Shown in pieces: positions 2,609 to 28,211 of a stretch of DNA of 64,000 bases (its first letter is position 1; each line of letters starts with the position of its first letter). This stretch comes from Microthyrium microscopicum (Eukaryota > Ascomycota > Dothideomycetes > Microthyriales > Microthyriaceae). Made by a program: the position numbers and the translations under genes. The DNA is taken from the NCBI GenBank assembly GCA_010405405.1, contig MU004238.1:1688374-1752373 (forward strand), in the 5' to 3' direction. The notes under the pieces were generated by a model that had not been told where the DNA came from, searched no databases, and saw nothing but the letters and a program-made list of their open reading frames with translations.

Positions 2609-3922
2609 GTTCAACAGGCGTTAGACGTTAATGAACGCCTTTCTGAATTTGAAACCAATATTCTGGTCTCGATACCTATCATTCGAGGAGCTTCAAAGAC
2701 AATGTAGAATAGGAAATTAGATCTTTTGCAGCACTAATCCCCAAGAGAATACATGCTTGGTCGAACATCTGAAAATACACGGTGACGCTGTCAACCCTTC
2801 GCGAGGAGGACGACGAAAAGGAAAGCCGGATTCAAACCTGCATGACAAAAGGTATTGAATGCTTACCATTCTTTACAGTCGCAAACAGATCGCACTGTGA
2901 CCTACCTAATGGAGCTGGGCCCGACCTGAAAATGACATACGGTGCCTTCGCAAGTTTAGCGAACACATTTCTCTCTTAATCCCTTGTAGCCAGCTAGGGT
3001 CAAAGGTAGGGAAAGTAGTCAATGGAGTGATCTTCATGGCTACCATAATCAACACGCACTATGGTGACATTGAGTATGCCGCCTGCAACAGCCGAGGCGG
3101 CAAGGGCCAAAATTGCGGTGATATTCCAAAGCAGTCGAAACTTGAATGTGCTGTTTGGCTGGTCGGTCAAACCACACTACCGTATATCTTGCTCTTGCAC
3201 GGCGAATGTGTTCACTGGCAAACTTGCCCATGCAGCAAAACACTAGGTTTAGAGATAGTGGCAGGCGCCCGAACGGCGGTGCCAAAATTCCAGCATGTAT
3301 CATCATGTAATTGGTGGCGCGTCTTTGAGCCGAGAACAGACGGGCCAGGTTTCGAGGCACTAAGGTGGTTATGTATGCTGCAAGAGCTAGGACGGGTATC
3401 GCGACATGATCTTCCACGGCTTCACCAAGCTGCTGGTCGTCGAAAACCGGCAACTGGTTGGGATAGATGGAAAGCAAAGTTGAGAAAATGTGGATAGGCG
3501 AAGGACTACACGAAAAATGGATCTGAATCCCTGAATATCATTATCTAATCTGATGCCATCTTATCAGATTTTTGCCCCTTTTGTTTACTACCAAGCAACT
3601 GCATCCCACGAACTTTGCTGGCATTGCTGCAACCCAGGAAAATCTCGCTCTCCCTAGTCGTGTTGACGAGCAATCCAACAGCTTGTTCTGAGACCCACCA
3701 TCTCGTCATACGGAAGCGTAAGAAAAAAAATGTCAAAGAAGCAATGGCGCTTCCTAACCCCGATGTCGCCAGCGATTGCTGCGCGATTGTCCGACTGCTA
3801 CTTTGCGCTCATGAATGCCCCGTTGATTTTTGGTCCTGGTGAGATTCTACACTTTCGTAGTTGCCCTGATTGACGCCCTTTCGTGTTTGCTACGCTTTGT
3901 ATTTGATAAGCTATCTGAAGCA
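2609..3922. other. Divergent NRPS/transacylase intergenic region
   Basis: About 1.3 kb of normal base composition between two divergent siderophore genes. It contains one exact SREA-type GATA motif (3561-3569) and a near match TTATCTAAT at 3541. Around 3049-3477 the minus strand has a 142-codon open frame, and another frame (about 3000-3160) encodes a hydrophobic stretch resembling a membrane helix. I could not join these into a spliced gene, so a decayed membrane-protein gene is possible but not supported. Confidence 0.5.
3561..3569 (-). promoter_or_regulatory. Putative SREA/Fep1-type iron-responsive GATA site
   Basis: TTATCAGAT, the reverse complement of ATCTGATAA. It matches ATCWGATAA, described for the Aspergillus siderophore repressor SreA. 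It lies about 350 bp upstream of the transacylase start and 950 bp upstream of the NRPS start, so it could serve both. Binding is inferred. Confidence 0.55.
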
Positions 3923-5596: not shown

Positions 5597-7377
5597 ATGG
5601 CAGAATATATGCAAGCCCATATCAATCAAAGTGCTCCTGCTGGATCAAAACAATCCCTTTCTATTATTCATGGCCCATCGTATCCTCCACTTATTACATT
5701 GACCATTTCACAAATGCTAGATCTACAATGTCGACAATTTGGCTCGCGAGAATGTCTTATTGTACCTTGGACTGGAGCAAGATGGACATACAACCAACTG
5801 CGGGAGCAAAGCATTGTCCTCGCCAAAATGATGCTTGACGTTGGAATTCTACCTGGAGATCGAATTGCCATAATGGCAGGAAACTGCGAACAATATGTGG
5901 CAACATTGTTTGCCGCTTCTCGCATTGGTGCCATTCTAGTAGTTTTGAACAATACGTACACTGCATCAGAAGCACTGCGAGCTATCCATCATACCGAAAG
6001 CAGACTGCTTTTTACTACACTCAAAATTGGGAGCTTGGATAATTCACTTTTACTCTCTGAGCTTTGCAGCAGTTTAGACTCTGCCCCGGCTCTGGAGGAA
6101 ATCATCATTCTGACCGGCGAGTCCAATGGGTTCCGCGCATATGAGGAAGCTATTGAAGCTGGTAATTACCTGAACAGCGAGGCCCTTGACAGCATTCAAG
6201 TGACTATTAAATCTCACGAGGTTTGCATGCTTTTGTTCACTTCAGGTTCCACTGGCAATCCCAAAGCCGCGAGTCTCACACATCAGTAAGTGTAAGATGA
6301 TAGATTCCTTAGACCTACCATGCTAATAAAATTAGTAACGTTGTCAACAACTCTCGATTCATCGGCAATCGCATGAATCTCACCAAAGACGATGTACTAT
6401 GTTGTCCACCACCACTTTTCCATTGCTTCGGCCTAGTGCTTGGTCTGTTGGCAGTAATGACACATGGCGGAAAAATTGTATATCCTGCAGAAATTTTCGA
6501 TCCTCCAGCAACCCTCAAAGCCATCTACGATGAAGGATGTACCGCACTACATGGAGTGCCAGCCATGTTTGATTCCCTCTTCTCCTTACCGAGGAAGGGG
6601 CTTGGCAAACCAAAACTGCGCACGGGAATCGTTGCTGGTTCGCCTGTCCCTCGTCACATCATGGAAAAAATGATCAACGAGTTTGGCATGTCGGAATTTA
6701 CCAGTAGCTATGGTCTGACTGAAGCGTCCCCAACATGTTTCAACTCTTTTACGCACGACAGCATCAGAAGGAAACTTACCACTGTTGGTACGCTGATGCC
6801 GCATGCGCATGCAAAGATTGTCGATCGAAAAGGAAGGATTGTGCCAACTGGCCAGCGAGGCGAGTTGTGCATTGCGGGCTATCAGCTGCAGGCTGGATAC
6901 TGGCAAAATCAAGAGAAGACATCGGAGGTCATGATGTATGATCAAGACGGTGTTCTATGGCTACATACTGGTGATGAGGCGGTCTTCGACAATGATGGGT
7001 ACTGCAGTATCACTGGGAGATTTAAGGACCTCATTATCAGGGGCGGCGAGAACATATATCCACTGGAGATTGAAGAGCGACTGGTTGCTCATCCTGGAGT
7101 TCTGCGCGCTGTGGTGGTAGGCATCAAGCACCATAGACTTGGAGAGGTTGTAGGTGCGTTTTTGCAAGGCAAAGAACAAAGCTCTCACCCAACTGATTTG
7201 GAATTGCGATCATGGACGCAGAGACGCTTGGGTAAGCATAAAAGCCCGCAGCATATCTTCTGGCTTGGGGAAGGTGGTATGCCAGCTCAAATTCCTTTGA
7301 CTGGTAGTGGGAAGATTCAGAAATATGTGTTGAGGGATATTGCAGAAAGCTGTCTCATGAGAGCTTCAAAATTGTGA
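5597..7377 (+). CDS. sidI: SidI-like acyl-CoA ligase (AMP-binding), peroxisomal
   Basis: Acyl-CoA synthetase of the ANL superfamily, likely activating mevalonate (SidI role) to supply the SidF-like transacylase. Two exons (5597-6285 and 6336-7377) with a 50-bp intron give 576 aa. The P-loop 'LLFTSGSTGNPKAASLTHH' spans the splice junction, which supports the intron. Other motifs are 'SSYGLTEASPTCF' (A5), 'LHTGDEAVFDNDGYCSITGR' (A7/A8), 'IIRGGENIYPLEIEE' and the catalytic Lys in 'LTGSGKIQKY' (A10). The protein ends in SKL, the canonical PTS1. In Aspergillus, SidI is recalled to use an N-terminal PTS2 instead; no PTS2-like motif is visible here. Family fit to medium-chain/SidI ligases is strong; the mevalonate substrate is inferred from the cluster. 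Confidence 0.88.
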
Positions 7378-7498: not shown

Positions 7499-8851
7499 TC
7501 ATAGGCGGGCAGTTTCAGGAATTACTCTACGACCGGTATATCCCTCTGGCGACTCGGAAGATGAATATTGTGTCAAAGTGCGCAGAAGTTGCTCTGTCCT
7601 GAGAGCTAGATTCTCAAAAGAGTTTCCGGTAGCATACTCATCTCGTAGAATCCATGCGCCATTGGCACCTTCAATCCGAGGAGCCAAAGGCTCGTCCTCG
7701 GCACTGTTGACAACTTTCTCTGAACGACCAATGATATTCTTCAATTGTGCCATCAAATGTGATTGCTTCACGTCGGCGTATCTGGAGGAGACAAAAATAT
7801 AGTCAAACGCGTCAGAGCAAAATCCAGAGTCGGTACCAGTGTTCCAACATTTCAAGACAATTTGATCGAACAGTTTAGAGGTTCCTATGACAGAAGTGCA
7901 AGGAAAGATCTCCGAGTTTCCTGGCTTTTGTTTGTGCTTTCGTACCAACTCAGTGTAGCGCTTTTCGTACAGGCTATGTAGTTGCTCATGCTGCACACTA
8001 GGATGAATTGAAGCTTGGGTAGTCGACTCGGAAAACTCGTGTGCTGCTAGACTGGTTAAGCTATTGTCGTGTTAGTTCTACTGTGAGATGAGTAGAAACG
8101 CAGCTTACAATGGGTTGCTATCATGCAAGCGCAGAAATGGCCCCTCATGAAGTAGTGTGATCTTTGCACCATCCAACCGTTGGCAATACTGGAAAATATC
8201 CAAAGCCTCGTCATTGCCGCCTACTACGGCTATGTTAAGAGATGATCCGTTCCATTGATTCAGGTCGGAAGTATGTTGTGTGAACTCAGAGGTGTGAAAG
8301 ATACGTTGCCCGACGTTGTGATATGGTACCCATTTGGGCATATCAGGACTGCTAGTCTGTGAGAGGATGATTGTTTTTGCTCTTATCTTAGTCTCCTGCC
8401 CATCGCATTTCCTGGACGTGACCTGAAATTGCCGGCGAGCAGAGGCATGACCGCTGAGCTGAGCAATAGACTGAACATCCTGATCATATTTGACCCATCC
8501 TGTAGTTTCCATTTTCTCTGCACACCAATTCAGATAGTTGCTGAATAGCTGGCGGGGAGGGTTTATTGCAGAAAGGTTGGTATACATGACAAGCATATCG
8601 GTGCTCCACAGATAATTGACGAGCGTAAATTTGGAGAGCGGATTTCGAGGAGTGACCAGATCCTGCATGAAGTTCGATTGCATCTTGGACCTCTCGAAGG
8701 GTAACCGGCTGCCTTGCCATGAGAACCGTTTCTCCTTTTCCAGGAAGAGCACCTTGAGTTTTGGCTGTTGCTCATAAAGCCCAATCGCGAGAGATAGAGC
8801 AGCAGAACCAAAGCCCACACAAACAATGTCGTAGACTTCGGTGGCGGCCAT
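7499..8851 (-). CDS. Diverged ornithine-N5-monooxygenase-like flavoprotein (SidA paralogue)
   Basis: Member of the lysine/ornithine N-monooxygenase family, convergent with the ligase gene. Exons 8109-8851 and 7499-8060, with a 48-bp intron, join in frame to 434 aa with no internal stop. The FAD loop 'GFGSAALSLA' (about residues 13-22) and the family block 'QDLVTPRNPLSKFTLVNYL' are kept. The NADPH loop reads 'VVGGNDEALDIF', where the true SidA in this window has 'VVGGGQSAAEIF'. The C-terminal 'FATGY' block of SidA is replaced by 'FVSSRY'. It is also shorter than SidA (434 versus about 510 aa). It may have changed substrate, lost activity, or be an early pseudogene that keeps its frame. Its upstream region is cut by the LTR element 328 bp from the ATG. 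Confidence 0.8.
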
Positions 8852-9179
8852 AATCTTGTTCTGAAGAGAGATTAAAAAAATGATCTTAAATAGAGAATAT
8901 GTCAGTCACAAAATGATCAAACGTTCTTGCAAAACCTCTTGACTTCGCGAAGCCAGTCTACGAATGAAAAAGGCACATCCCGCTAAGTGTCTTCAAAACA
9001 TAGTTTACAAAACGGCTTGGCTTGTTAATTACCGACTAAGTTTCACTCTGTCATTGTCCGATCGCAAAGTTGCACAAAGACTGTCAGTGATCTACCGGAC
9101 GCTGAATGCAACGTGCGCAAGGCGTCGAAATGACAGCATTAAGGACTATCTGCCTAGAATTACACCACTTTGACCTAGA
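8852..9179. other. Truncated upstream region of monooxygenase paralogue
   Basis: The 328 bp left between the paralogue ATG and the retroelement insertion. No GATA-type iron site is seen in it; the matching remainder of the original promoter lies beyond the element, from 18787. Confidence 0.6.
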
Positions 9180-9331
9180 TGTTATAAGAATATAAGAAAT
9201 AAAGCGTAGTTAATTACTATAAGAGTCTAAGGGCCTAATATAGTTTTTAAGACACGCTAATTAAGGAATTATATTATCCTTAATTAGGTCCTATAATTAT
9301 CTAATCCTTTAGTATATTCTTTATTATAATA
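9180..9331 (-). repeat. Left (3') LTR
   Basis: 152 bp, aligning without gaps to the right LTR. I count 17 differences, and all are C/T or G/A transitions, as expected from RIP acting on both copies. Confidence 0.93.
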
Positions 9332-12300
9332 TTCTTCCTTACTAGTATAAACTCTTCTAAGATTATAAATCTTATAGCTATAGCTTTAATAAATAAGTAA
9401 AATAAAAAGAATATTATAATAATTAATAAAGAATCTTTACCTAGAAACTAGGTCTATTACTCTAGCTATATTAAATAGTAATTTCTAAAATATTATTCTC
9501 TAAGAACTCTTCTTAAGATCTTAGTTAACCTATTATAAATAGTACTTAGGTATTTATAGCTCCTTAATCTTTTTAAGAAGGTTTATCTATATAAAAGCTA
9601 TTAGTAGTAGTATATTAAGAAATTATAAAGAGTTTATATAAGTATACTAAAGCTACTTAATCTAGTAAGGAATATATATAATCTACGTATTAAGGCCTTA
9701 AAGGATAAAGTTTATAAGAAGTAATATATAGGTAGTAATAAAGAACTAAGTAGTAATTACTAGTCTAAATAAATATAGAGATAAGAGCTTAATTTTATAT
9801 TTATAAAGCTTTATAATTTATTATCTTTTCTTTTTCTTCTTTATTATACTTCTATAATATTTTTAAGCTAGTAGAAGTAAATTTCCTTTTATACTTTTAA
9901 TATTATTAAATATAAGTAACTTTATATATTCTCTTTACTTAAAACTTACTATTTATACTTTCTAAAGCTCTTAAAATAGCTCTTCTAGGTATTCTAAAAA
10001 AGAATAGCTTTTAAAAGTTTAATAAAGGAAACTCTTTCTATTTAGGTACTTATTAGAAAATTATTAACGCTTTAAAGGAAGATAAGTAGAAATAGCTCTT
10101 ACCTTATATAACTTATTTATATAAAAAGGTTAAGACTAAGGTTTTATCCTCTTTACTAAGTTATAAAGAAACTTTTATAAAATTAGTTTATAACTTAATT
10201 AAGCGTTATTCTTATTCTATAAGTTTCTAGCTAATTAACTAAATTTTAAAGGCTAATAAGGAAGAGGAAAATCTCTTTAGTAATACCTCTAATAATATTT
10301 TTTATTCTTATTATAAGTTTTTAATATCTTTTATAATGCTAAGAATATTTTATTAAATAATTTATATTAATAATACTCTTACTTAGAAATTAGTATATAT
10401 AATAAAAAGTCTAGACTTATTAGAAAGTAATTATAAAGCTAAGTATAGAACTTTTATACTTTTTAACTTATTATAGATATGTAATTTTTATATTAAGACT
10501 TTTATAATAGTTTTAACTTATAAGTATAAGGTTACTAAAAAAGAGTTAGTAAACTTAGTAAAGTATTAAGAGTTTATAAAGTAAAAAATAAAAGGTTATA
10601 AAGATTAACTAGTTTTTACTAATAAGAGCTTAGAAGATACTTATAAGTATATTAAAACTACTAAAGCTATATATAATAAATATAAGTAAAAGTTAAAGTA
10701 AATAAAATTTTAAAAGTATAAACGTAAAGTAAGCTTAATAGTAATTCTAAAAAAGCTATTTACTACGCGTAGTTATATAAATATAGTAAAACTAACTACT
10801 AAGAAGAGTATAAATTATTAAGAGAAGTAGATTAAGTTCCTAAATTCTAACTAGTATCTTATCTTTAAAGATATTAAATTTTTAAAGAAGAAAGTAACTT
10901 AGGAATTACTTTTTTAGCTCCTAAAGTATTATTAGAAAAATAGAAGTATTTTAATAAAAGTTACTAATATCTTAGTACTTATATCTTAGTAAGGAATTTA
11001 TTAATATTTAAGTACTTTACTCTTAACTAAAAATATCTTATTATTATCTTCTTATTTAAAGACTTCTATAATATATATAACTATAGAAAGAAAGTAAGAA
11101 AAGGCTTATAAGCGTTATTAAGATTCGTTATAAGTCTATACTTATAATAAGTATATTATTAATATATATAAAGAGAATAAAGCTTTTTTTCTAAATAGCG
11201 TCTATACTAATTATATATTTAATAATAAGCCTTAAACTTATTTATTTTATAAGGACTACGTTCTACTATAGAGTTAGAAGAAAAGTTTAAATCTTATTAT
11301 TATTTAGTTATCTACTTCTCTTAGTATTCTTAAATTACTAATTAATAAGAAGTACTTTAAAATAGCTAAAATTACTATAGAATTAGTAGCCTAAATAAAG
11401 CTCTTAGAAAATAATAAGAAGAAGTAAATATAGGCCTTAAAGAGATAAGACTCTATAGGATTATAGTAGGATATATAGTAATAGTTCTTTAATATTTCTA
11501 TATTTCTTAGTCTTATTTTATTAGTTTATTAAAGAGTAGACTTTAGTAATAATCCTAGAGATTACTAAAAAGATCTAAAGATAACTTATTATATTTAAAT
11601 ATTCTTAATAATAGTCCTAAGGATTACTAAGAAAATCTAAGGATTTAGCTTATTTATTATAGCTTATAATAGTTTACTTAAATTAATAATAAAATAAAAG
11701 TAATTTCTTATAAATAGTTTCTTAAATAAATATAATTAAGAAAGATTATAAAAGAGATAATAAAAGGTTAATTTTTCTTTTCTTTCTTATAGGCACCTTA
11801 CCTATATTTATATATAAGATAATCTCTTATTTAGAAGTAGCCTTTTATTATCTTTATTCTAATCTTAAATATTATAGACTAGTACTAGGATATATAGAAC
11901 TACTAGGTATTATAGTTAGCTTAAATATATTAGTATTCTATAAGAATTCTTTAGTTATATCTATTTCTTATAGTAAACTAAGTTTAAAATAATTTATAAG
12001 AAGAACTTCTACTTTTATAGTATTTAGTAATAAAGAGTTAATACTCTAATAGTTCTCTTTAGGATTAAATACCTATTTATATAAATTTATTATCTCTAGT
12101 ATAAGTATATAGATAATTAGGATAGTAATCCTATTATAACTTCTTAGCTTTAATAATTTATTTTTTTAATCTTATTATTCTAGTAATATAAAAATTAATT
12201 CTTAATTTATTATAGCTAGGAGGATTTCCTTCTTTACTAAGCTTTAATTTAAAGAAATAGAAATATTATTATTATTTTTTTTTATTAAATTTTATAGTAC

Positions 12301-14880
12301 TATAAAATATTTTATCTTCTATATAATTTACTTTATTTACTCTAGATTACTTTATACTAAAGCTAAAATTAGATTAAAAGGAATATATTCTAATACTATA
12401 AGAGTTTCTAAGTTACTACTTAGATTATAGATAGTTACTATAGAATATTTTTTTTCTTATTTATAAATACCTACTTTAGCTTCTTAAATTTTTTTTATAA
12501 AGTTAAGAGAAATAGTAGGTAGACTTAAGTAATATCTCTTAGTACTAAACTTCTTAATATTAATTAACTTTACTAAAAGGTTTCTTAATCTATTAAGCTA
12601 GTTTTTCTTAATTATAATAGATATATTTATTTTACTTCTATACTCTTTATTTAAGACGCTTTTAAAGTTATTCTTACTTAATTACTTATACTTAGGATAT
12701 AGCTAGTTTTAGTAATAGTATTTTTTTTTTTTTATATATATATCTATATAAAGTAATTCTTATAAATAAGGTTTTTAAGTACTTTTCTATTAAGTATCTT
12801 AAGAGTATATATTCTTAAGGAATAAGCCTTTAAAACTTTATAAAAGCTAAACTATACTACTTAGAACTTAGTTTTATTTAAGTTTTTAAGAAGTATATAA
12901 AAACCTATAAAGAACTTAATAATAAAGTCTTTTTTTAAAATTATATTATTATTAATAAGGTTTAAGGCTATAGCTTATTTTAATAAAGTATTATAATAGA
13001 CTTACTTAGTAATTCTAACCTTCTTTAGGTAATCTTTAGTAATTATATAGATAAGAGGTATAATACTAGTTAATTTAGCCTATTTATTTTCTTTTACTTA
13101 GTTTATTTTAAAATCTTTAAAATCTCTTTTATAGATAAGAAAGAAGAGAAATATTTCTAATATAGTATAAGCTTATACTCTAGTAGTATAAACTACTTAA
13201 TTTAGATATAAATCTTAGCTAGCTATAAGTTTTCTTTTTAAGAACTTAGTTAAGAATATATCTAGTAAGCTATTAAATTTTTTAACCTTTTTATTAGACT
13301 AGGAGTTATATAAAGCTATTAAGTAGTACTTAGTCTTTATTTATTATAATAAGAATAAAATTACGTTTAAAATAAATTAAGGTCTATTATTTAAAGTTAA
13401 TAATTAAAAAGGACTATATTCTAAAATAATTTTTCTATAGATAAATTCTATAACTATAAAAGTAGTAGTATTTAGTATTACTTTTATAATAAACTATCTT
13501 ATAGTATAGTTAATTATATAAATAATATACTAGTTCTTAAGAAGACTCTATAAAAGTTTACTAATTAAGTTAATTTTCTAAGCCTTAAATAGCTATAGGT
13601 TTTATACTTAATAGTAAGACTTATATTTAGGCTTACTTTAATCTATCTATTAAACTTAATATATAGAATAGAACTTAGTAAATTCTTAGAAGTTATCCTC
13701 TATTCCTAACTACTAACTCTTTAGTTTAAGAATACTAGTAAGGCTTATATATAATAAGTACTTATACTAATTATATATTTTCTTAATAAGGTCTTAGTAA
13801 TAAAGAGAATAAATATAGAGTAAACTAGTAAGTATCTTAGCTTTAATAGAATCTTTTTCTAAGAATAAATACTTATATTTTTTTTTAATATTACTATTAG
13901 GATTAATCTAAAAATAATTAAGAACGCTTTTTTAAAGCTTCTTCTATATACTAGTAGAAATAATATAATCTTTCTTTTTTAATACTTTTTATAAGCTCTA
14001 TATATAGAGAGCTTCTTATTCTTTTTACTCTTATAAGGATTCTAATAGGGTAGCTTATACCTTAAAAGATAAATTATTATTATTATTTTTAGACTCTATT
14101 TCCTAAATAGTATTAATTTATCCTTCTTAAAAGTTTAAATAATAACTAAGAGTATTAAGAATTACTACTTAAAAACTCTTATAATATATAAAGATAAGAT
14201 TAAATTCTTAGAACTTTTTAATCTATTAAGTAATATATTAGATATTATTTTTAATTATATTTATATACTATAAGCTATTATAATCTATAATTACTTTAGT
14301 AGTCTTCTTTAGAAAGTAATATTAATATCTCTTAATTATATTCTTAACTATAAAAAGCTCTTTCTTATATACTAGATAGTTAAGTTTAGCTTTACTTAGC
14401 TTATAGCTATTAAAAGTAACTAAGTATTATTTACTCTAGTTATTTTTTTATACTAGCTTATAACTAATTATATAATCTAAAGTATTTATCTAGAGTTTTA
14501 TAGGCTTTTATAAATTATATACTACTAAGATAAGTAATAAAGTTAATAAAGTCTTAATTCTATTAAAGGCTATAGTATATTAATAAGTCTAAGTAATAAA
14601 GTAGTATTTCTTTTTTTTAATATTTAAGTTAGCCTTCTTTAGAAGGTTAAAGATAAAGGTAGTAATCTTAGTAAAGTTCTTAATATATTACTAGTAGTAT
14701 AAGGTAAAATTAAAGAATTAATATACTTTATATATATTTTTAGTTATAAGCTAAAACTTAATTAAGGTAGTCTTTTTATATAAGGATTAAATTTACTAAT
14801 TTTCTACTTTATAGCTATAAAATTTAATCTTTTTAACTCTAAAGACGTATTTATTAGAATAAGTATAAAGCTTATTATTC

Positions 14881-15251
14881 TAAAAGATTTTTAAAACCTA
14901 GGTAATATACTTATAATATTCTTCTATAATATTTAAGTAAATAATAATATTATTTAAGTAAATAACTACGTAGGTTAATAGAAAGAGTTAAAGAAATATA
15001 TTTATTATATATTAAAAGAATAATAGCATATTTATTAATTTAAAAGATATAATAAGGAACTTATACTTCCTAAACTTAGTATTAAAGGCTATTTTCTTAA
15101 TATTTTTTTCTATTATATAGATTTACTAATAGCTTAATAGGAAGTTAAGCTTAAAGAAAAATTTTACTTTACTAATAGTATTAAAATACTTATTAATCTA
15201 TAGTAAGGAATAAGTATTCTTACGTATAACTATATTAAGTAAATAGTAGTT
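14881..15251 (-). pseudogene. Gypsy reverse transcriptase core, dead
   Basis: Translating the minus strand gives a degenerate RT palm. A block like 'NYYLLN' at 15251 matches the family D-Y-R-x-L-N motif. 'ISKVKFFFKLN' follows, where 'F.K.D' is usual. Ninety-six codons after the first block comes 'YLNNIIIYL', the YxDD box of gypsy elements with both Asp codons turned to Asn by G-to-A change. In-frame TAG/TAA codons stand where Gln or Trp would be. The order and spacing fit Ty3/gypsy pol and set the element's strand. The product is non-functional. Confidence 0.82.
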
Positions 15252-18200
15252 AATATATATTCTTTATTTTCCTTCTAGCTTTAATACAAATAAGATAAAA
15301 AAACTTTAAAAACTTTCTAAGACTCTAATAAGTTCTTTAGTAAGTAGTTCTTAAATCTACTTTTCTTATTCTTTTAGTTATAAGCTAGATATTTAATAAT
15401 AAGCCTAGTTATAAAGAGAGACGTCCTTTATAGAGATTTTATAATTAAACTTAGAATATAGTAAGAGTTTAAGAAGGATATAATAAAAGGACTTATAATA
15501 ATTATTTAAAAGTTTCTATATATCTTTATCTTTTAGAGCAAGTTTATTAATATTAAGGTTATTAGTTATTAAGAAGATATTAGGCTATTCTTATATTTCT
15601 TAAATTAGCTAAAGAACACTCTTAACTTTATCTTTTACTCTTTTTACTCTATTTTAAAGTATTTAAAAAATTATATAAAGAGAGCTAGCTATAAACTACT
15701 CTATTTATTCTAAGTAGCTTCTCTTATTCTAAAGAGGCTCTACTTAGCGTTTTATAGTAAGCTTATAAATATATAAGCCTTTTAAGTATTACTCTATAAG
15801 CTTAATTTACTTTATTATCTAGTTAATCTATAGATTATATAATTAGAACTATAAGAGTCTAAAAATAATATTAAGATTAAAGATATCTAAGATATAAGCC
15901 TTAAAGTAGCTATAAAAGGTTCTAATATAATAAAGTAAGTAAATCCTAAAGAAAGTTATAATTATATAGCTATCTATAAGAATAACTTCTTTCTCTAGAA
16001 TAAATATTATAAGAGCTTTAAGTTTCCTAATAATCTTTTAACTAATATAAATAAAGTTAGCTTCTAAGTCTAAGAAAGCTATAATTTTAATAGAATAATT
16101 TTTATAATATAAGTAAATAAGTAGATATAAGAGAGTATTACTATATCTACTTATATAGTTAAGGAAAGCTTATTAGTTATTATATAAATAAATAAAGTAT
16201 TCTAGTTCTAAGCTAGAAGATTCTTATTTATCTCTTAGTAATAATAGTTTTTTAAACTCTATTATTATTAGTTAAGCTTTTTATAATCTATAGCGCAATA
16301 GCTAAGTTTACTATAATTTTAGTACTTAAGTTTAGAATTATTTATAAAAGCTTTTCTATTTTTAGAGTCTTTTTTATAAGAAGGCTATAACTTCTTATTA
16401 AAGTTAAATTTCTTAGAGTATTAAGTATTATATTATCTTCTAGGATAGTAACTATAGCTATTTATAGTATTAAGCTACTCTAAATTATTATTATTTAACT
16501 TAGGCTTATTATTAGTATAGCTATTATTATTAACTTCTTTAAGATATTTCTTAAAACTAGTATTTAGAGTAAGCTTTTTATCTTCTTTAAAACTAAAGGA
16601 AATTTTATTAAGCTACCTTAGCCTATAAGCATTATAAGTATTATATATATTCTTATAGAAGTTTATATTATATTTAATAATCTTTTATTTAAAGGCTAAA
16701 ATATTAATTATAGAATTAAGAATAGTACTATGCCTATACTTAGCTTTAAAGATAACTTATTCTTTAAGGCCTCTTTAAATTTAGATACTTAATTTATAAT
16801 TAGTAAGTATAGGATTTATTTAAGTCTATAGAATATAAAGATAATAAATAAATTCCTTAGTAAATAAAACCTATAATATATAGTTCTACTAAATACTAAT
16901 CTTAAGTATATCTTTTTTAATACTAAATATAGGTTAAAAATAGGTAAAGAAGTAAAATAAACTTTTAAGTATCTTAAACTTCTCTATAACCTATTATTAA
17001 GCTAAATTAGCCTATAGAAAACGTTACTTAATAAGGAGATATTTTCTAACCTTAATAATTTTCTATTACTTAGGTAGGGTAGAATCTAATAGGATAATAT
17101 CCTTATTAGCTTTAAAGATATAAAGAAGACTCTTAGTCTAGGTATTATACTTACTTAGTTTCTTAGAGAATAAACTATTAGGAAGTATCTTAAACTTAGT
17201 TAAATATTATCTTTATTTCTAAAGAACGTCTCTTATTATCTTAATAAGTTTTTAGGGGCTAAAGGTTTAGAAGAGTAATTTAATAGTCTTATCTAACTTC
17301 TTACTTAGCTTTTTTATAAAGTCTAAGTAAGTAATATTTATTTATAAAGTATCTTAAGTTAACGCCTATATCTAGGTATAAGCCTTAATTTTATCTATTT
17401 AATAATTTTAAGTACGTAGAGTAAACTTATTTACGTTAAAGTAAAAGGTTAATTTAATAATATAATTTACTATCTTTTATTACTAGGTATATTAGATATC
17501 CTTTATAAGTTTAAGGCTATAATCTTATTTAATTTACCTATTAGTAATAAAGTAAAATAATACTTCTTAAAGAAGAATAAGCCTATTTATAAACTACTAA
17601 TTTCTATTATTATTACGTTAAAAAGTTTAGTTATAGGTCTAAGAAACGTAGTTAAATCCTTTAGGAGTATAGTTCTAAGTCTAAGAGAGAGTTTATAGTT
17701 TAGTAAGAAGATAGTTAATAGTCTAGAGATTAACTTACTATACGTTAATAAAATAGTTTAAGGCTTAAGGCCCTAATTACTAAATATTAATAACCTAAGT
17801 TATAAAGTTAAGACTAAGATTTAGTATACTAGAAAGGTTATCTAGTAATATAAGAGTAAGTTACTTATTCTAAAGATTTAGGTTAATAATCTAAGCTTAG
17901 TATTATATCTACTAAGTATTTTATTCTATAGCTTAGGCTATAATATTATTATACTAGTTATTTATTTTAGTAAAGAGAAGTAATAGTTTTAATAAAGAGT
18001 ATAATCTTAGTAAAGTAAAAAAAAAGTCTTAAGATCTAAAAGTTCTTATACTAAAGTTAGTTAAATAGAATCTAGAGTTAGAAGATTATTTTAAGGTAGA
18101 TTTTTATACTTCCTTAATATAAATAAGATTTTAATCTAATTTCCTAAGATAACTTAAGGCTAAGAGTCTACGTTATTACTTATTAGCTTTAATCTATATA

Positions 18201-18629
18201 GTAAAGTTCTTATAACGTTATTCTAAAAGATTTTTTAAGAAGAAATTCTTATATTTTATCTAATAGCTATATAATTAATATAGCAAAGGTTAGTAGGGAT
18301 AAAGAGGATATTATTATAAGAGAGATAATTTTTATAATATATTTAATAATTTTTAAAATAGTAGTTTAAATTAAAGATAATTTAAGATATTTTTAGAATA
18401 TATTATAGTAAGGAATATTATTATATATAAATCTTAAGAATTATTTCCTAATATATAGTTATTAAGTATTAGGCTATAATAAGGCTAGCTAATTAAGAGA
18501 TAATATTCTTAGAGTATATTTTACTAAATATTAATCCTAAGTAATTATTAATAATAAGATAAATCTAGGGATTTCTATAAGAGGTCTATTATCTAGAGGT
18601 CTTAATTAAATTAAATTATTACTACTAGA

Positions 18630-18781
18630 TATTATAAGAATATAAGAAATAAAGCGTAGTTAATTACTATAGGAGTTTAAGGGCCTAATATAGTTTTTAG
18701 AATATACTAATTAGGGGATTATGTTATCCTTAATTAGGTCCTATAATTATCTAATCCCTTGGCATGTTCTTTATTACAACA
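18630..18781 (-). repeat. Right (5') LTR
   Basis: 152 bp. Read on the minus strand it begins TGTTG, the usual TG start of an LTR. It is less mutated than the left copy at several sites, for example in the last 30 bases. Confidence 0.93.
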
Positions 18782-19124
18782 CTAGAGAACGTCTTAGCTA
18801 GATGGACCCTACGCGAATACTAGTACCCAGCCATACAAGCGTAGAATAACTCGAAATGGAATGGTCTCCTAGTTGCGACTAACAGGACTAATCTCGCCCA
18901 ACACGGACTACCGCATTTATCGGAAAAGCGCAGACCCGTGAGAATGAGAGTCGCCAGAGATGAAGAAAATTTGCAGAAACTTTTAGGTCATTTCTGTGCT
19001 CGCGTGTACGTATACAAAGCTGGCACGGTGGGATACAAGAGCGCGTGTGGTTGGAGACTTGGAGAGGAAATGACGCTAATGCATGCCAAGGGTGTGATCC
19101 GAGCACCGCGCTAAGCATTTTAGG

Positions 19125-19133
19125 TTATCTGAT
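19125..19133 (-). promoter_or_regulatory. Putative SREA-type GATA site (first of a pair)
   Basis: TTATCTGAT, the reverse complement of ATCAGATAA, an exact ATCWGATAA match. It sits in an imperfect direct repeat, GTTATCTGATCCGC, with the site 22 bp further on. It was about 670 bp upstream of the monooxygenase paralogue before the LTR insertion. Confidence 0.6.
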
Positions 19134-19146
19134 CCGCCTTTTTAAG

Positions 19147-19155
19147 TTATCTGAT
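19147..19155 (-). promoter_or_regulatory. Putative SREA-type GATA site (second of a pair)
   Basis: TTATCTGAT within the second copy of the GTTATCTGATCCGC repeat. The 22-bp spacing puts both sites on about the same helical face (two turns). Confidence 0.6.
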
Positions 19156-19845
19156 CCGCTCAATGCAGCTAATCCTTGTCTCCAGTCCCCAATAGCGAGG
19201 ATTTGCATGATTGACCTGAGGTGATGCCCACATTTGCTCGAAAATGAGGAAATCCAATTTCGGGCAGTTTCTAAGCTAAAGATACCTTCGCAAAATCTGG
19301 ACTCTAGTGCTCACTTGGCTACTAAAATATTTAGTCAGTCGTCAATAGCGGCCTCGGGATTTCACTCAGGCATGCAGCTACCGGTATGAAGTCAAATGGC
19401 AATTTGAGTCTACATCGAAAAGCATTTCTCGGGAAGAGGTTACATAATGTTATGAGACAATATGTAGCTCTATAGATTGTGTAGGCTCGCAAGCTTTGAG
19501 TGTGCTTTGGCACTGAAAATATTCTGCGCCAGTAAAAAAGCCAATCGTCAGGATGAGTGCCATGAATTGTGTGTATTCCCAAAATAAATCAGCACTCAAA
19601 GGATATCATGGTGTTCATATTGGAATGAGCGCTTGAAAGATACATAGAACAAACACCTTCGCTCTGGTTATTAACCTCATTAAGGCATCTCATTTCACCA
19701 AATGTTTATAACGAATAAATATAGAAATCCAGATATGCATATTCAGATTGGAATAGTTATTATGTGTTCTCTAGTACTAAGCTAAGTACGTATACTACAC
19801 GTCATCCTTTGTATTCTCTCATTTTGTCAACATAAACGTTTAGGC

Positions 19846-21774
19846 TTAGAAGACTAGTCCCTTAGTTTGCTTGACGCGGTTGACGTTGACATCCTTAATC
19901 ATAAACACCCAAATCAGTGAAGTTGCCATGATGCAGACACCAGCAGTGCACATATACTTCTGTGCCACAGCATAAGATGTGATGATAGCATCCCGCACAG
20001 GATCGCCCATGGGGTAACTCAGTTGAGTATCGAGATCATTGTAGATATCCGTGAGATTAGCTTGCGCATAGTCAGGAAGATTCTTGGCCAAAGCTTCCGG
20101 GAAGGTGTTTGTCCAGACAGCGCCAGAAATTGAGTTCCCAATGGCGCCGCCAATGTATCCAAACAGTCCAAGTAAAGCCAAAACAGCTGCGAATTGCTCA
20201 TGCTCAACAACAGACATGATGGATATTTGTTGAGTCAAGATGAGAGTGCCGCCGGAGATAGCTATGAATATCTGGCACATGACCACGTAGCCAACGCTCC
20301 AGCCTGGCTGTCTGAAATAAATCATAAGTCCAATGCCTAAGATATCCATGGGAACAGCGATGATCATGATCCACTTGAAATGTCCAGTTTTGCGGACCAG
20401 ATATCCAATAAAGAAAGTCCAGATTCCAGATACAACGTCAAAGACGCTGCCAACATATCCAGCCTCTGAAATGCCAAGGTTATGAACCACCTGTAGATAA
20501 GAGGTAAAATAACCGCTCCAGCAATAATATCCGACTTGAAAAGCAAGGGTCAACATGCAAGTACCCAGAACTGAGCGATGCAGTAGAATGCTGAATGGTA
20601 AGAAAGGCTTCGGGGCGAGGAACTTTTCGTATAGGACAAAAGCGATGAGTAACACGAAGCCGAGGACGAGCATGGCAATGATGTGTGGTGTTTTCCATTG
20701 GTCGACGGCATCTCCAGCAATCGAGAAAGGGAGGAGGAAGAGACAGAAGCCAGCTGCGAATAGAAATACACCAAAGGCTGTTGACATATGAGCTCAGGTT
20801 GCATACTCAGGATTCCAAGGAGAACATACCGTCCACATCAACAATATAAAACCAGATACTCTGGTTCCATTTCCTACCACTGTTCCTGGGAGTCAACAGT
20901 CCTGATTTCTTTGCCTTCTGCTGCCAAAGCATAAGGGTAATGAATAATGGCGCAGCTACGACTGGCAAGATGATGCAGAAAATACCAAAGGCCCATTGCC
21001 AACTGATTTTCTCATAAAAACCTTCAGCCGCTTTGGGACCTGCAAAAGCGGTGATGATATACGGCGATGAGGTAAAAGCATAAGCCAGAGCTCGATTTTT
21101 AAGGGAAGTGACATCAGCAGTAACGACGTCACAAGAGTAGATGAGCGCATCGAAGCCGACAGTGTAAAAGACCTGTCATGTTCATCAGTACCAATCTCGA
21201 ATATAAATAAGCATAGCTGCCTACCTGTGCTGCCGCGAATGTCTCCACGTTTGTCGTTTTGGCCATCAAGATCAATCCCAAAGTTGCTACGCAAAGCGCA
21301 ACCGCGAAACCTTGTGGTCGACCCCACAGGTCAAGTAATCTCGACACAGCAAGCCGCAAGGAGCCAGCCATGACATTGGACACAATGTATATTGTTGGTA
21401 CCAAAGAGTGAGCTGCAAAATCTGACAAGACAAAAGGCGTCAAGTTGCTGGTGATTGAAGATTGGAAAGCATTGGCAAAATACACCAGCCAGATTCTACA
21501 AACATCAGCATGGGGTTTCTTCGAATGTGTATGCCACTCACGATGCGAAGACAGTAATCAAGAATGGTTTTGTCCATGTCAGAGTAATGGCTTCAGCGTT
21601 CCGAACTCCATTCTGTACTTCTGGATCTGGTACGTCACTGAGACTTTCCGAGACATCTCTGGTGTTTTCGGCCACATTTTTATCTTCGGCAGAGATATGG
21701 ACTGGCTCTTCGTGCAGACTGCTTGGCTCATTCTCGAGGCGAGATCTAAAGCGAGATCTCACTTTGGAAAACAT
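19846..21774 (-). CDS. mirB: MirB-like siderophore-iron MFS transporter (SIT family)
   Basis: Plasma-membrane major-facilitator importer of ferri-siderophores, expected to take up the product of this locus. Four exons (21542-21774, 21225-21495, 20830-21172, 19846-20777), with introns of 46, 52 and 52 bp, join in frame to 592 aa. A charged cytosolic N-terminus of about 70 aa is followed by the SIT-family block 'WLVYFANAFQSSITSNLTPF'. About 14 hydrophobic segments follow, as is usual for SIT proteins, with 'GRPQGF' in an early loop and a long final luminal loop ('DYAQANLTDIYNDL'). It is divergent from the ABC transporter gene. Two SREA-type sites lie about 550-590 bp upstream. Assignment to MirB rather than another SIT (MirD, Sit1) is by context. 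Confidence 0.88.
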
Positions 21775-22317
21775 GGTGTTGATTGTTCAAGACGACAAAC
21801 TAATTGATAGTTCGAGATGTTGGACGAAAAAAAAGACTAGCAGCCAAGACAGGAATCCCAAAGTCTGGAATTTGGGGACAATAATGATCTCTGCAGCGAT
21901 CACTGACACTAACATACTGTCGACCAGCAACATATCACGGCTTGACGAGTAAAAACCTTGAAGCATCTAGAATATGCAGGCGTAGGCCGAAGCCGGAGGA
22001 TTCGTCGCAAAGTTGACGACCGGGCATAGCGAGCAATTGCATGTTTTACTCTCTAAAGCCCCATTGAAGGACATGACTTTAGAAGATTTACCCAAAAACT
22101 CGAGTTTGTCCACAAAGCAAGAGAGCAAGAAGGAGTTCAGAAGGCATACTACAGACTGGGAAATCCCTGCAGCCCCACATGCATGGACCCAGGATTGCAT
22201 TAGCGTTCCCATCGTGGCCTACCAGGAAGGTTAAAGTTCAAAAACGTTGCTCACGATGCAAGCGCCGTTCCCAGTGGACTGGTAAAGTGGCTGGAAACCC
22301 ACGCACATCCTGGGCTC

Positions 22318-22326
22318 ATCTGATAA
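22318..22326 (+). promoter_or_regulatory. Putative SREA-type GATA site
   Basis: ATCTGATAA, an exact ATCWGATAA match, 544 bp upstream of the MFS start. A near match TTATCTAAT follows at 22330. Confidence 0.6.
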
Positions 22327-22352
22327 AAGTTATCTAATCGAAAATGAAAATC

Positions 22353-22361
22353 TTATCTGAT
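22353..22361 (-). promoter_or_regulatory. Putative SREA-type GATA site
   Basis: TTATCTGAT, 27 bp after the previous site and in opposite orientation. It is now about 1.75 kb from the ABC transporter ATG. Without the hAT element it would be about 400 bp away. Confidence 0.6.
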
Positions 22362-22435
22362 CCCGTGCTAGTGTTTTCAAATTTTCATCTCCTTCTTCCT
22401 TCGAGCAGCCCAGCTCTGTCGTTGCGTCTTCGCGG

Positions 22436-23784
22436 CAGTGTTGGAACTCGAGTTAGTATAGTCGAGTACTAGTACTAGTACGGCTAGTATAGGATTATTT
22501 TAATACTAACTCGACTAGACTAGTCTAATCAAGATCTAGGACTAGTACTAGTACTATACCAGTCTAGAATTATATAATAAATACTCTACTAGTACTTAAG
22601 TACTAGTACTAGTATTACTAGTATACTAGTAGTAGTTTTATATATAGATTAGGGTTAATATTATAGGGTTATTTTTATATTATTTAATTTAGAATTTTAC
22701 GTAGATTACAATAGTGTTATTAGTTTTCTAATAGCTAGTCTTATTCTATAGTTATTATACTTTAAACATAAAGTTATTTAATTATATTATATTTTTAAAG
22801 GTTATTTAGTTATATAGCACTTAATATTATAAATTACTTAATAATATCTTAGATTTAGTATTCTAGATTTATAATACATATAAAAATATAAAAATTAGAG
22901 CTAAATATACTAATAATTAGTTTAAATACTAATATTTAGAAGTTAGGAGTATAAAACAATTAAGAAAAAGAGATAAGTTTATATAAATAACTTAATAGTA
23001 GTAAATTTTAAGATAAATATATAAATTATTATATATTTAGATTCGTTAAAGTATAAAGAAAACAGCCCTAGAGTTAGTTTTTAAATAAATAGCTTATATA
23101 CTAATATATATTAGTATTTAAAAGTTTTTAATAAATAAATTAATAAAAGTTTAAGTTTTATATTTTAAATACTAGTAAATAAGAAAAACTATTATTACTA
23201 CCTTCTAGAGCTAGTAATAAGGATTATAAAAATATATAGAACTTATACTAAATATAGCTAAAAGCTATTATAACTTATATTTAAAGATTTTAATTAGAAT
23301 ATAAAAGTAAATAATAACTATTAACCTAAAATATATAAAGGTTTTACTTATAATATAATACTAAATAGGTATAACTAATTCTAAGCTATTTAATACTATA
23401 GCTTTTTATTCTTAACTTCTTTTAGTTATATCTTAATACTAATTATAAATATATTAATATTTAGTTTTATATTCTTTATAACTCTATAACTAATAGAGCT
23501 ATACTAAATCTAAGACTAGATCTAGATTCTTTAGATTTAGAGCTATAAAAAGGTATATTATATCACGTGACTAGTATCTTAGCAAGTACTCTAATATACT
23601 ATAGTATTACTATACTAGACTAGAGTATTAATTAGTTAGTACTAGTACTAACTCGTTCTAAAAAATTCTAATACTAGTACTAGTACTAGACTAGTTAGAT
23701 TATTTAAAATACTAGACTACTAGTACTCGAGTACTAGTATACTATACTAGACTAGTTTTAGTACTAACTCGAGTGCCAACACTG
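22436..23784. mobile_element. hAT-like DNA transposon remnant, AT-saturated, 1.35 kb
   Basis: The ends are inverted repeats: left CAGTGTTGGAACTCGAG, right end the complement of CAGTGTTGGCACTCGAG. An exact 8-bp target duplication CTTCGCGG flanks them (22428-22435 and 23785-23792). The 8-bp duplication and CAGTG termini are typical of the hAT superfamily. Subterminal zones are rich in repeated CTAGTACT-type motifs on both sides. The interior is AT-rich with few CpA/TpG, consistent with RIP, and no transposase can be read. At 1.35 kb it is either a non-autonomous copy or an internally deleted one. Confidence 0.88.
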
Positions 23785-23792
23785 CTTCGCGG

Positions 23793-24115
23793 CAGGTTTT
23801 GCAGGCTTGGAAGCACCATCAGATGTGCTTTCTTTTGGCCCTGGCTCTTTTGCTCGTGATTCACCGCGGTCAGTCCGACTAACCCAGACAAGGTCAAGAT
23901 GGGCGGTAGCTTGACCCGCTCGTTTTCGTCGATGGAGACGGCGTCCTGTTTATGGGATTGTCCTCTACTAGCCAAGGAATGCGGCGATGCCGGAAATGAA
24001 TTTACGCTTGCGCGAGAATGCCTGGATTCCATGGCTTCTATGTAGGGTCTGGTTCTGGAGATAGTTAGACACCTAGGGTGTTACTCCAAAATTTGAACAA
24101 TGTCAATTCTTGACA
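23793..24115. other. Upstream region of the ABC transporter
   Basis: About 320 bp between the hAT element and the ABC start. On the minus strand a frame beginning with ATG at 24032 is open into the transposon, but no known protein is recognised. No GATA site is seen on this side. Confidence 0.5.
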
Positions 24116-27100
24116 ATGGTAGAGAAGACAAGTGAACCGCCGGCAACGGTGACCGATACTGTAACAGAAGTGGTGGTGGATGGATTTTGGGTGAGAAGAC
24201 CTATTGCAACTCAACGTTGATAAGACGAGCCCAACTGATCACTCTCGTAGACGAAAGTTTGCAAATTCAATCAGTACTTCAACCTGTTAGTTTCTGCAAA
24301 GCCATCAAAATGGGACATCTTTATGCTCTGTCTTGGCTTCATTGCCGCCGTCGCCTCTGGTCTTCCATTTCCTCTCATCGGAATAATTTTCGGCCAGCTA
24401 GTTGATGAATTTAATTCGACAACATGCAGCAACTCGGTCGACCCCGACGAATATCAAAACAGTGTCAACCACAAAGTCTTGCTGGTGTTATATGTGGCGA
24501 TCGCTCAATTCGTCCTCATGTACACATATCTCGCATGCTGGAGTCTGACTGGAGCAAGACTTGCACAGAGACTTCGAGAACAGTATTTGCATCATCTACT
24601 AAAGCAATCGCCAACCTTCTTTGACACTCGGCCAGCTGGGCAAGTGTCTTCTCGACTCAATGGCGATATCCAAACCATACGCGCTGGCACATCCGAGAAG
24701 GTTGGAATATGCATCTCCAGTCTCTCCTTTTTCGTAACAGCGTACATTGTCGCCTTCATCAAACAAACAGATCTCGCTGCAATGCTGTTGTCGCTCGTCC
24801 CTGCATACTTTCTCATGTCCTTGGTTGGAAACAGATTCATTGAGAAGTACGCCGAACAAGTGTCCGATCATATCGCCAAATGCGCATCCGTTGCTTTGGA
24901 GGCCCTTTCTCACATCAACGTTGTCCAAGCATTCAATGCAAATAGACGGCTCGAACTAAGATTTAGCAAAGACCTTGTCAATGCTAGGACAAACGGTATA
25001 AACAAAGCTGTCGCGATCGGCATCCAGGCAGGCTCGATGTATTTTATTGCCTACGCTGCCAATGCGCTTGCATTCTGGCAAGGCAGTAGAAGCATTGCTC
25101 AAGCTGTTGAAGGGTCTGGTAACTCAACTGTTGGAAAAACGTATACAGTCATCTTCATTTTAGTAGATGGTATGTTCTCTATTGCAAGAGGCCGCCAAAT
25201 TGTTTCGCAGCTCAACTAACAAGACAATAGCTACCCTCGTTCTGAGTCAAGTTGCACCCTTTGTCCAAATTTTCTCCGCTGCGGTCGGATCTGCAAACTC
25301 GCTGCATCAAGACATGGCTCTAGAACACAATGATACGCCCGAGTATGATAATGAAGATGTGTCATCAGGTATTGATGGTCATGTCAAGTTCTTTAACGTT
25401 TGCTTCGAGTATCCTTCTAGACAAGGAGTCACTGTACTCAAAGACGTAAACATGGACTTTCCAGCAGGCAAGCACACTGCTATTGTCGGTCAATCTGGCA
25501 GCGGTAAATCAACGATAGCCGAGCTTATCACCAAGCTGTATGAACCAACCGGCGGCGCAATCCTGATTGATAAACATGACTCTCGATACATCAGCCCTGT
25601 CAGTTTGCGAAGCTTCATTGGATCTGTGGAACAAAATCCGACGTTGTTGAATAGATCGATCCTGGAGAACATCGCGCTGGGTCTGCTCAGTTCTTCTTCT
25701 CCTGGCCATTCAAATCTGCGTACAACGCTACTCGACTCTACCTTCCAGCAATTTGTTGACTATCTGAGAGCTCATGGGAATGGAGAGCTTGACGCCAGCA
25801 AAATATCTACCGACAGCAATGTCATGAGAATTATTGAACTGGTGAAACAAGCCGCCACTCTCGCTGACGCCGATGCATTCATAAGACAACTCAAGGACGG
25901 CTATACCACAACTCTAGGCTCTAAAGGGCGGACTCTAAGCGGAGGCCAGCGACAAAGAATTGCTTTGGCTCGCGCTTTAGTGAGAGATCCGAAGATACTC
26001 ATTCTTGATGAAGCTACATCTGCGCTCGACTCTCAAACTGAGATCCGCGTTCACCAGGCATTGGAAGCGGTGGCATCGGGACGTACACTCATTACGATCG
26101 CCCACAGGCTCTCTACAATCCAGAATGCCGACAATATCATCGTTTTAAGAGATGGCCGAGTAATGGAACAGGGCACTCATGTAACCCTCATGGCAGCGAA
26201 TGGAGCTTATGCTGAGATGGTATCTCTCCAATCTCTGACTTCACCAACTACAAGTAGCTCAGATTCAGATCTGGACTCCATCACAAGTGACGCTCCAAAA
26301 ACCGAAGCACTAATAGACATTCCACTGGATATCCCTCTCGTGGGCGATGAAGAAGATAGCTCGGTGTCGTCAAAACGACCTTTAGGTCGAATCTTCTCGG
26401 GTGTTTGGAGACTTGTCAATAAATACACCGTCATCATCTTGGCCGCGTTTGTTGGATCGCTTGTTGTAGGTGGATCATTCTCGGCTGAGTCAATTATATT
26501 TGGAAATACTGTCGGAGAGCTCAACACGTGCCGATCCCCAGCTGATATTCTGGCCAGTGGAAAATTCTTTGCGCTCATGTTCTTCATTCTCGGCGTAATT
26601 GAGTTTTTCGCCAACATAATCAGTTGGGCCGGTTTTGGCCTTGTATCGGAAAGGCTGCTCTACAGAGTGCGGGTTTCGACATTCAAGACGATGCTAAAGC
26701 AGAACCTCGATTGGCACAACATAGAGAGGCGCACTCCAGCGTCATTGCTCTCGATCATCACCAAAGATAGTGCGGCTCTGGGTGGGATTAGCGGATCGGT
26801 TATCGGGACAATACTCTCAATCTTGATCAATCTTGTTGCTGCAATAATTCTAACCACTGTAATCGCATGGAAGATTGCTCTGGTCTGCCTTTCAACAGTA
26901 CCACTTCTCCTTGGAGCTGGCTTGATTCAACTGCGAGTTCTAACCAAATTCGAAGAAAAGCATGAGACTGCATACTCCGAGTCTGTTGATCTGGCCATTG
27001 AAGCGGTCGAGTCCATCAAAACCGTTGCTAGTTTCTCCCTGGAAGAAGACACCATGGCTCGATACAGAAGAGCCTTGGCTGGACCTCGGGAAGAAACAAC

Positions 27101-28211
27101 TAGAGTATCTCTGGAAGCAAGTCTCTGGCAAGCAATCACTTATTTACTTGGAAACTTGTCCTACGCTTTAGCATTTTGGTGGGGCTCCAAGCAGATCATT
27201 GCCGGGACTTACAGCACTACTCAATTCTTGATTGTCATTATGGCTCTACTTGTATCGGCCCAGCTTTGGAGTCAGATGTTTGCTTTAGCACCTGAACTGT
27301 CAAGCGCCAGGTCGGCTGTAGCACGTATCCTCAATCTTTTGGACTTGGACCAGGAAAACTACAGGAAATCCCAAGAATCAGATTCTGTATCCAAAAATTT
27401 TGATCTTGAGGCTATGCATGAGCTTAAGGCCCAGTCCCCAATTGCCACTTCAGCTCTAGCTGTGGAGTTCCAGAACGTACAATTTTCATATTCAGGAAGA
27501 CCAGATCTGAAAGTACTCCATGACTTGACCATGCAAATCAAGCCTGGCCAGTTCACTGCATTCGTGGGTCCTAGTGGTGCCGGGAAATCCACCATAATTT
27601 CTCTCATCGAACGTCTCTACACTCCTACCAGTGGCACAGTGAAAATTGGCGGACTCGACATAAACAAGACTCGAGATCTGGGATTTCGCGACAATATCTC
27701 ACTAGTTCCACAAGACAGTGCACTGTTTGATGGCAGTGTCCGGTTCAATGTTTCACTTGGTGCAAGACCTGGCCATGAAGCTACAGATGAAGAAATCGAA
27801 GAGGCTTGTCGCCTGGCAAATATCCATGAGACTATTACCAAGCTTCCTGAAGGGTACGAGACTGACTGCGGCTCGAACGGAGGCTTGCTATCTGGCGGAC
27901 AAAAACAACGAATTGCTATCGCTCGAGCGCTGGTGAGGAAGCCAAAATTGCTGATATTGGATGAGTCTACGAGTGCTCTGGATGCCGAGTCTGAACGAGC
28001 AATCCAAGAGAGCTTACAGAATGTAGCAGGAGGCGTGACTATCATTGCTATTGCACATCGTCTGAACACAATTCAGCACGCGGATACCATTTTTGTTATT
28101 GAGAGTGGTAGGTGTGTGGATCAGGGGAAGCACGAGGAGTTGATGAGACGGAGTGAAATGTATAGGAGCAGTGCTTTGTATCAGCAGTTACATTCTGTGT
28201 CTTCTAGCTAG
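24116..28211 (+). CDS. SitT-like full-size ABC-B (MDR-type) transporter
   Basis: Full ABC transporter, TMD-NBD-TMD-NBD, 1324 aa. Exons 24116-24190, 24251-25169 and 25231-28211 (introns 60 and 61 bp) join in frame. Exon 1 adds a 25-aa lead not seen in the main open frame. NBD1 has Walker A 'GQSGSGKST' (about residue 417), signature 'LSGGQRQRIALARAL' and Walker B 'ILILDEATSALD'. NBD2 has Walker A 'GPSGAGKST' (about residue 1111), signature 'LSGGQKQRIAIARAL' and 'LLILDESTSALD'. All catalytic motifs look intact. In Aspergillus fumigatus an ABC-B gene (sitT) lies in the sidD/sidF cluster, so a role in siderophore export or handling is inferred. It is divergent from the MFS gene; the hAT element now lies between them. 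Confidence 0.9.

Follow-up and report, generated by a model that had tools for sequence, protein, structure and literature searches.

Transposon insertions between candidate iron operators and two genes of a siderophore cluster in Microthyrium microscopicum

The siderophore cluster and its features

The window analysed here is a stretch of 64,000 nucleotides of the Microthyrium microscopicum genome (contig 9, positions 1688374-1752373; the genome comprises 36.9 Mb in 20 contigs). Its siderophore half contains, from left to right, a nonribosomal peptide synthetase (NRPS), a SidF-like gene, an AMP-binding acyl-CoA ligase, a SidA-like paralogue, a transporter of the major facilitator superfamily (MFS), an ATP-binding cassette (ABC) transporter and a second SidA. 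Two transposons are inserted into this half, a retrotransposon with long terminal repeats (LTRs) in front of the paralogue and an hAT element in front of the ABC gene, and each of them separates its gene from two ATCWGATAA sites, which are candidate SreA-type iron operators. Both elements carry the marks of repeat-induced point mutation (RIP), and they are the only two strongly AT-rich blocks in the 1-kb G+C profile of the window. The features are as follows.

1..2608, minus strand: siderophore-type NRPS, 5' part, from open reading frames; ATG at 2608, runs past the left window end
3541..3569, minus strand: ATCTGATAA with ...GATTAGATAA, composite candidate operator between NRPS and SidF-like gene
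3923..5245, plus strand: SidF-like N5-hydroxyornithine transacylase (PF13523)
5597..7377, plus strand: SidI-like acyl-CoA ligase, AMP-binding (PF00501)
7499..8851, minus strand: SidA-like paralogue, 434 aa, intron 8061-8108 (PF13434, alignment)
8852..9179, no strand: paralogue promoter stub, 328 bp, without ATCWGATAA, CCAAT or SRE motif
9180..18781, no strand: LTR retrotransposon, RIP-mutated, 9602 bp; LTRs 9180-9331 and 18630-18781 (152 bp)
19125..19133, minus strand: ATCAGATAA, candidate operator 1 of the paralogue pair, in the GCGGATCAGATAAC context common to ftrA
19147..19155, minus strand: ATCAGATAA, candidate operator 2 of the paralogue pair, in the same context common to ftrA
19846..21774, minus strand: MFS transporter (PF07690 on the last exon)
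22318..22326, plus strand: ATCTGATAA, candidate operator on the strand of the ABC gene
22330..22338, minus strand: ATTAGATAA, candidate operator with one mismatch
22353..22361, minus strand: ATCAGATAA, part of the composite ATCAGATAAGAT..GATTAG, which reads in the direction of MFS (same orientation to the gene as in the sidA1 and NRPS promoters)
22436..23784, no strand: hAT element, RIP-mutated, 1349 bp, CAGTGTTGG termini
23785..24115, no strand: ABC promoter stub, 331 bp, without ATCWGATAA, CCAAT or SRE motif
24116..28211, plus strand: ABC transporter with two membrane and two ATPase domains (family search)
28482..29867, minus strand: SidA2, ornithine N5-monooxygenase, motifs intact, partial gene model (family search, alignment)

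The NRPS was identified by reading the sequence and not by family search, and a reading frame goes on in the locus L055. The MFS protein is a putative siderophore transporter by its place within the cluster. A third, full-length SidA is encoded on contig 15.

The two insertions

The element in front of the paralogue has paired LTRs with the outer ends TG and CA and is flanked by a short target duplication, CTAGA (5 bp, at 9175-9179 and 18782-18786), as is typical for its class. Its interior is riddled by RIP, and a comparison of one LTR with the other gives 17 differences in 152 positions, every one of them a transition, eight of which stand in a CpA/TpG context by our own tally from triplets. 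The family has at least 40 scored matches genome-wide, many of them paired 9-11 kb apart. Twelve LTR loci out of 40 scored matches were examined for their flanks, and 11 of these, the window locus included, have one flank with a G+C of at least 0.44, the remaining one having 0.36, so that insertion into normal, probably genic DNA appears to be usual for this family. The hAT element is bounded by CAGTGTTGG ends, which belong to the CAGTG type of inverted ends that we take to be a mark of hAT elements, and by the 8-bp target duplication CTTCGCGG at 22428-22435 and 23785-23792. Since the end matches of three relatives found by genome search are 8-9 kb apart, the copy at 22436-23784 has apparently been internally deleted. 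Compared with four copies over its first 748 bases, it shows 23-27 transitions and 9-13 transversions. Both elements are poor in G+C (about 0.20). Their composite RIP index is near 1.6, whereas six other stretches measured gave -0.32 to -0.82. That the elements are not genuine insertions is ruled out by the target duplications on both.

The initial annotation had placed the LTR element between the paralogue and the sites 19125/19147, and the hAT element between the ABC gene and the sites 22318/22353; the element ends together with the CTAGA duplication in one case, and the termini together with the CTTCGCGG duplication in the other, bear this out. The distances it had estimated (about 0.67 to about 10.3 kb at the paralogue, 0.4 to 1.75 kb at the ABC gene, MFS distance kept) agree with the exact values as well. 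Before insertion the paralogue sites were 667/689 bp from the ATG and are now 10274/10296 bp away, the ABC sites moved from 398/433 to 1755/1790 bp, and the MFS gene remained 544/579 bp from the same sites. Neither of the two stubs left between element and gene (328 and 331 bp) contains ATCWGATAA, CCAAT or TCANNCCA. The gap from element to start codon is nearly equal, 328 and 331 bp, for two unrelated elements.

It had also been proposed that the two insertions happened independently and were alike in their consequences. Both do lie between operator and gene, but the double separation is not the striking coincidence that this suggests, because it is about what random insertion gives. The intergenic regions were 1387 bp (first locus) and 984 bp (MFS/ABC) long before insertion, and by geometry a random insertion lands between the sites and the paralogue with a chance of 0.48. 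In the divergent MFS/ABC promoter the chance is 0.40 for the interval between the sites and ABC and 0.55 for that between the sites and MFS, so that an insertion there splits one gene or the other from the shared sites nearly always (0.95).

Candidate iron operators

Exact ATCWGATAA sites occur in the window at 3561, 19125, 19147, 22318, 22353 and 39405. The whole genome has 501 of them in 36.9 Mb, or one per 74 kb, whereas the 19,245 non-transposon bases of the cluster have five against 0.26 expected (Poisson 8e-6), the cluster region for this comparison having been picked after the fact. Of the three possible pair arrangements, the direct and the facing one were searched genome-wide with a maximal spacing of 40 bp: the only direct pair is 19125/19147 (0.14 expected), and a facing pair exists at a single place, 22318/22353, where the control gave one match per strand. 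Furthermore, the extended 14-mer GCGGATCWGATAAC has three copies in the genome. Each of the two paralogue sites contains one, and the third lies 179 bp upstream of the putative start of ftrA, which here means the gene of an FTR1-family iron permease. Chance GATA matches are rejected as an explanation, since there is an excess both of the extended motif in its exact form and of its pairs, although neither the one-mismatch motif (46 seen, 50.8 expected) nor HGATAR (218 seen, 270 expected) is enriched in the window. Taken together, the rarity of the motif genome-wide, the unique pairs and the 14-mer shared with ftrA strengthen the SREA-type nature that had been assumed for these sites, and the sites at 19125, 19147, 22318 and 22353, which match the consensus, are very likely SreA-type iron operators.

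Three of the six gene regions checked outside the window carry a site upstream of the presumed start codon, sidA1 at 705 bp, sreA at 240 and 610 bp and ftrA at 179 bp, and within the cluster one site is common to NRPS and SidF; at these iron genes the sites are found beyond chance. Among the loci retrieved, the only other locus outside the window with a site is L010, where it adjoins another GATA gene, apart from a stray one in L056 within the frame of a neighbouring gene. A composite ATCWGATAAGAT-N-GATTAG is present in the sidA1, NRPS/SidF and MFS promoters, always on the strand of the named gene (window 3541-3569 and 22330-22361; locus L001 3419-3446). As the sreA and ftrA sites read opposite to their genes while the composites read with theirs, the operator strand is not constant. 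The SreA candidate itself is encoded on contig 3, and its two GATA fingers flank a cysteine-rich stretch, which is the layout described for SREB and its kin (PMC2848559). Its gene has two upstream sites of its own (L013 2298, 2668), which suggests autoregulation. In Fusarium graminearum, SreA is described as occupying promoters that bear ATCWGATA motifs (PMC10602907). The HapX profile PF10297 found no match, and its control was likewise without any match.

Several observations weigh against a reading in which operators were separated from the displaced genes. Shuffled windows contain 2.01 sites on average and 3 of 100 reach the six seen, which is a mild excess only. The control for the direct pair, with the pattern reversed, gave seven matches (3 + 4), although this control is a poor one because the reversed word has 1425 occurrences in the genome versus 501, almost three times as many. 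No site was found at MFS2 and MFS3 (further MFS genes, located on contigs 15 and 1) or at a SidL-like gene on contig 1, nor within 2 kb upstream of the AMP ligase or SidA2, two cluster genes untouched by the insertions; not every siderophore gene of this genome is therefore marked by the motif. Moreover, the pair 19125/19147 also lies 699-721 bp past the MFS stop, and it can be attributed to the paralogue by its position alone.

The SidA-like paralogue

The paralogue cannot simply be called a siderophore gene. Its first exon matches PF13434 with an E value of 1.4e-51, so that the FAD-binding half of the enzyme fold is present, whereas the second exon has no Pfam match at E 0.01. It aligns to SidA-type structures over the first 250-260 residues only, and over 283 to the lysine monooxygenase 5cqf. 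In SidA, the GxGQSA motif and Arg279 serve NADPH binding, and Lys107, Asn293 and Asn323 contact ornithine. Compared with Aspergillus fumigatus SidA and the two intact copies of this genome, the paralogue has Gln for Lys107, Thr for Asn293 and Glu for Arg279; GxGQSA is replaced by GGNDEA and ATGY by SSRY, and Asn323 is without counterpart (numbering of 4b63, A. fumigatus SidA, by our own count; the three-row alignment is weak in its second half). Neither the NADPH residues nor the ornithine residues with the ATGY motif, by which membership in SidA is recognised, are retained. Since these residues are gone, the protein is unlikely to function as a siderophore enzyme, and of the initial claim that two siderophore genes were cut off from their operators, the separation stands while the label does not hold for the paralogue.

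A decaying pseudogene is rejected nevertheless, because all 434 codons are open, the intron has consensus borders, the codon signature is intact in both exons and the in-frame score resembles that of the neighbouring genes. Judged from the open frame and the codon signature, the likelier reading of the paralogue is a protein that has been retained without catalytic function. Its split from SidA would long predate the arrival of the LTR element. A literature search for an inactive SidA paralogue gave no match. One could go further and suppose that a selected non-catalytic relative of SidA, once under an operator of the ftrA kind, was freed from iron repression by the transposon and is now an iron-independent regulatory pseudo-enzyme, which we regard as very unlikely.

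Consequences for iron regulation

Changes of cis-regulation by transposon insertion into fungal promoters are a known general kind of event, and the locus belongs to it, as in each case an element parts the start codon from motifs farther upstream, although here it is known from the sequence of one genome. We give about even chances to an ordinary case of this kind, with a true separation at the paralogue and an uncertain effect at the ABC gene. An apparently normal SreA-type iron-repressed siderophore cluster has received two independent promoter insertions, both later riddled by RIP, and that both ended up between operator and gene is a frequent result of random insertion into such intergenic regions. 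The LTR element would have severed the paralogue from its two operators, so that its promoter is now a stub of 328 bp bordered by 9.6 kb of AT-rich DNA, and the iron control of the paralogue would most likely be lost altogether; with 10 kb of RIP-type DNA in between, loss of control is likely, but its direction could be either way. The hAT element would merely have shifted the operator shared by MFS and ABC from 0.4 to 1.75 kb off the ABC gene. As SreA motif studies used 2000 bp upstream (PMC2610380, PMC2848559), the ABC gene would still count as having its sites. With the operator inside this usual search range, ABC probably keeps some of its iron control and MFS would keep all of it. Since the paralogue is probably a non-catalytic SidA relative, its decoupling need not alter siderophore output.

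Following the initial annotation, one may suppose that the operators have become too distant and that iron repression is loosened at the paralogue and the ABC gene while activation is kept. The geometry of elements and operators speaks for this, as does the derepression of A. fumigatus ftrA by mutation of its SreA motif (PMC10294635). However, the ABC site remains within 2 kb, the paralogue has lost its enzyme residues, and the title of the Ustilago maydis sid1 paper names distal GATA sequences that mediate iron repression. At the paralogue, CCAAT words have been displaced along with the operators: the distal segment beyond the LTR element has five of them versus about two expected by our estimate, a weak excess. 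Loosened iron regulation at both genes is thus not supported as it was put, and we hold it to be quite unlikely. Given that CCAAT words were moved and that both elements are RIP-mutated, the genes may equally well, or more probably, have lost their induction or been silenced. Silencing would mean that the elements have turned into heterochromatin which spreads into the stubs of 328 and 331 bp and shuts down paralogue and ABC gene whatever the operators do. This would fit the RIP index of about 1.6 and the G+C content of about 0.20 of both elements, which adjoin the stubs, as well as the observation that Leptosphaeria genes in AT-rich regions are up-regulated once the H3K9me3 machinery is silenced (PMC3945186). 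The hAT element is short (1.35 kb), though, and the stubs are without a clear RIP signature (index -0.32 and -0.73); we hold silencing to be rather unlikely.

It may also be that the pairs never governed the displaced genes, 22318/22353 being the MFS operator and 19125/19147 having served another transcript or a lost gene. In favour of this, the composite at 22353 is on the MFS strand, as for sidA1 and NRPS, the AMP ligase and SidA2 manage without a site, and the direct pair is oriented to the paralogue the other way round than the ftrA site is to its gene. However, orientation varies in any case, as sreA and ftrA have sites opposite to their genes, and 22318 is on the ABC strand. Between 18782 and 19845 there are short frames only, of at most 89 aa (no protein-library search was made), and the idea that the LTR element disrupted an unseen gene beside the sites was rejected on the same grounds. 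We consider it unlikely that the pairs never controlled the displaced genes. If expression agrees with a separation by ordinary insertion, the same type of operator would stand at 0.5 (MFS), 1.75 (ABC) and 10.3 kb (paralogue) from genes of one locus, which would thus be a natural experiment on the reach of SreA operators. Moreover, with the unique paired sites and the operator type shared with ftrA as a guide, the iron regulon of M. microscopicum could be listed with high selectivity.

Comparison with known systems

The iron-regulated siderophore cluster of Histoplasma capsulatum comprises SID1, SID3, SID4, NPS1, ABC1 and OXR1 with (G/A)ATC(T/A)GATAA sites (PMC2275787). Both clusters contain the same gene kinds, the same operator and some divergent promoters, whereas the cluster described here additionally has two transposons inserted in it and a second SidA-like gene that is degenerate. 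It also resembles the SreA regulon and the ftrA promoter of A. fumigatus in the ATCWGATAA motif, the single site near ftrA and the clustering of siderophore genes (PMC2610380, PMC10294635), but operator function was measured there, whereas here it is inferred. In a literature search combining siderophore, SreA, promoter and fungus, 'transposon insertion' was absent among the matches listed; the event as such, a transposon insertion in a promoter, is of an already known kind.

Minor observations

SidA2 is intact and is without a site in the 2 kb upstream, unlike sidA1. The site at 39405, outside the siderophore cluster, stands between the arms of an inverted repeat at 39292-39504 that resembles a miniature inverted-repeat transposable element, with 52-bp arms that are 96% complementary.

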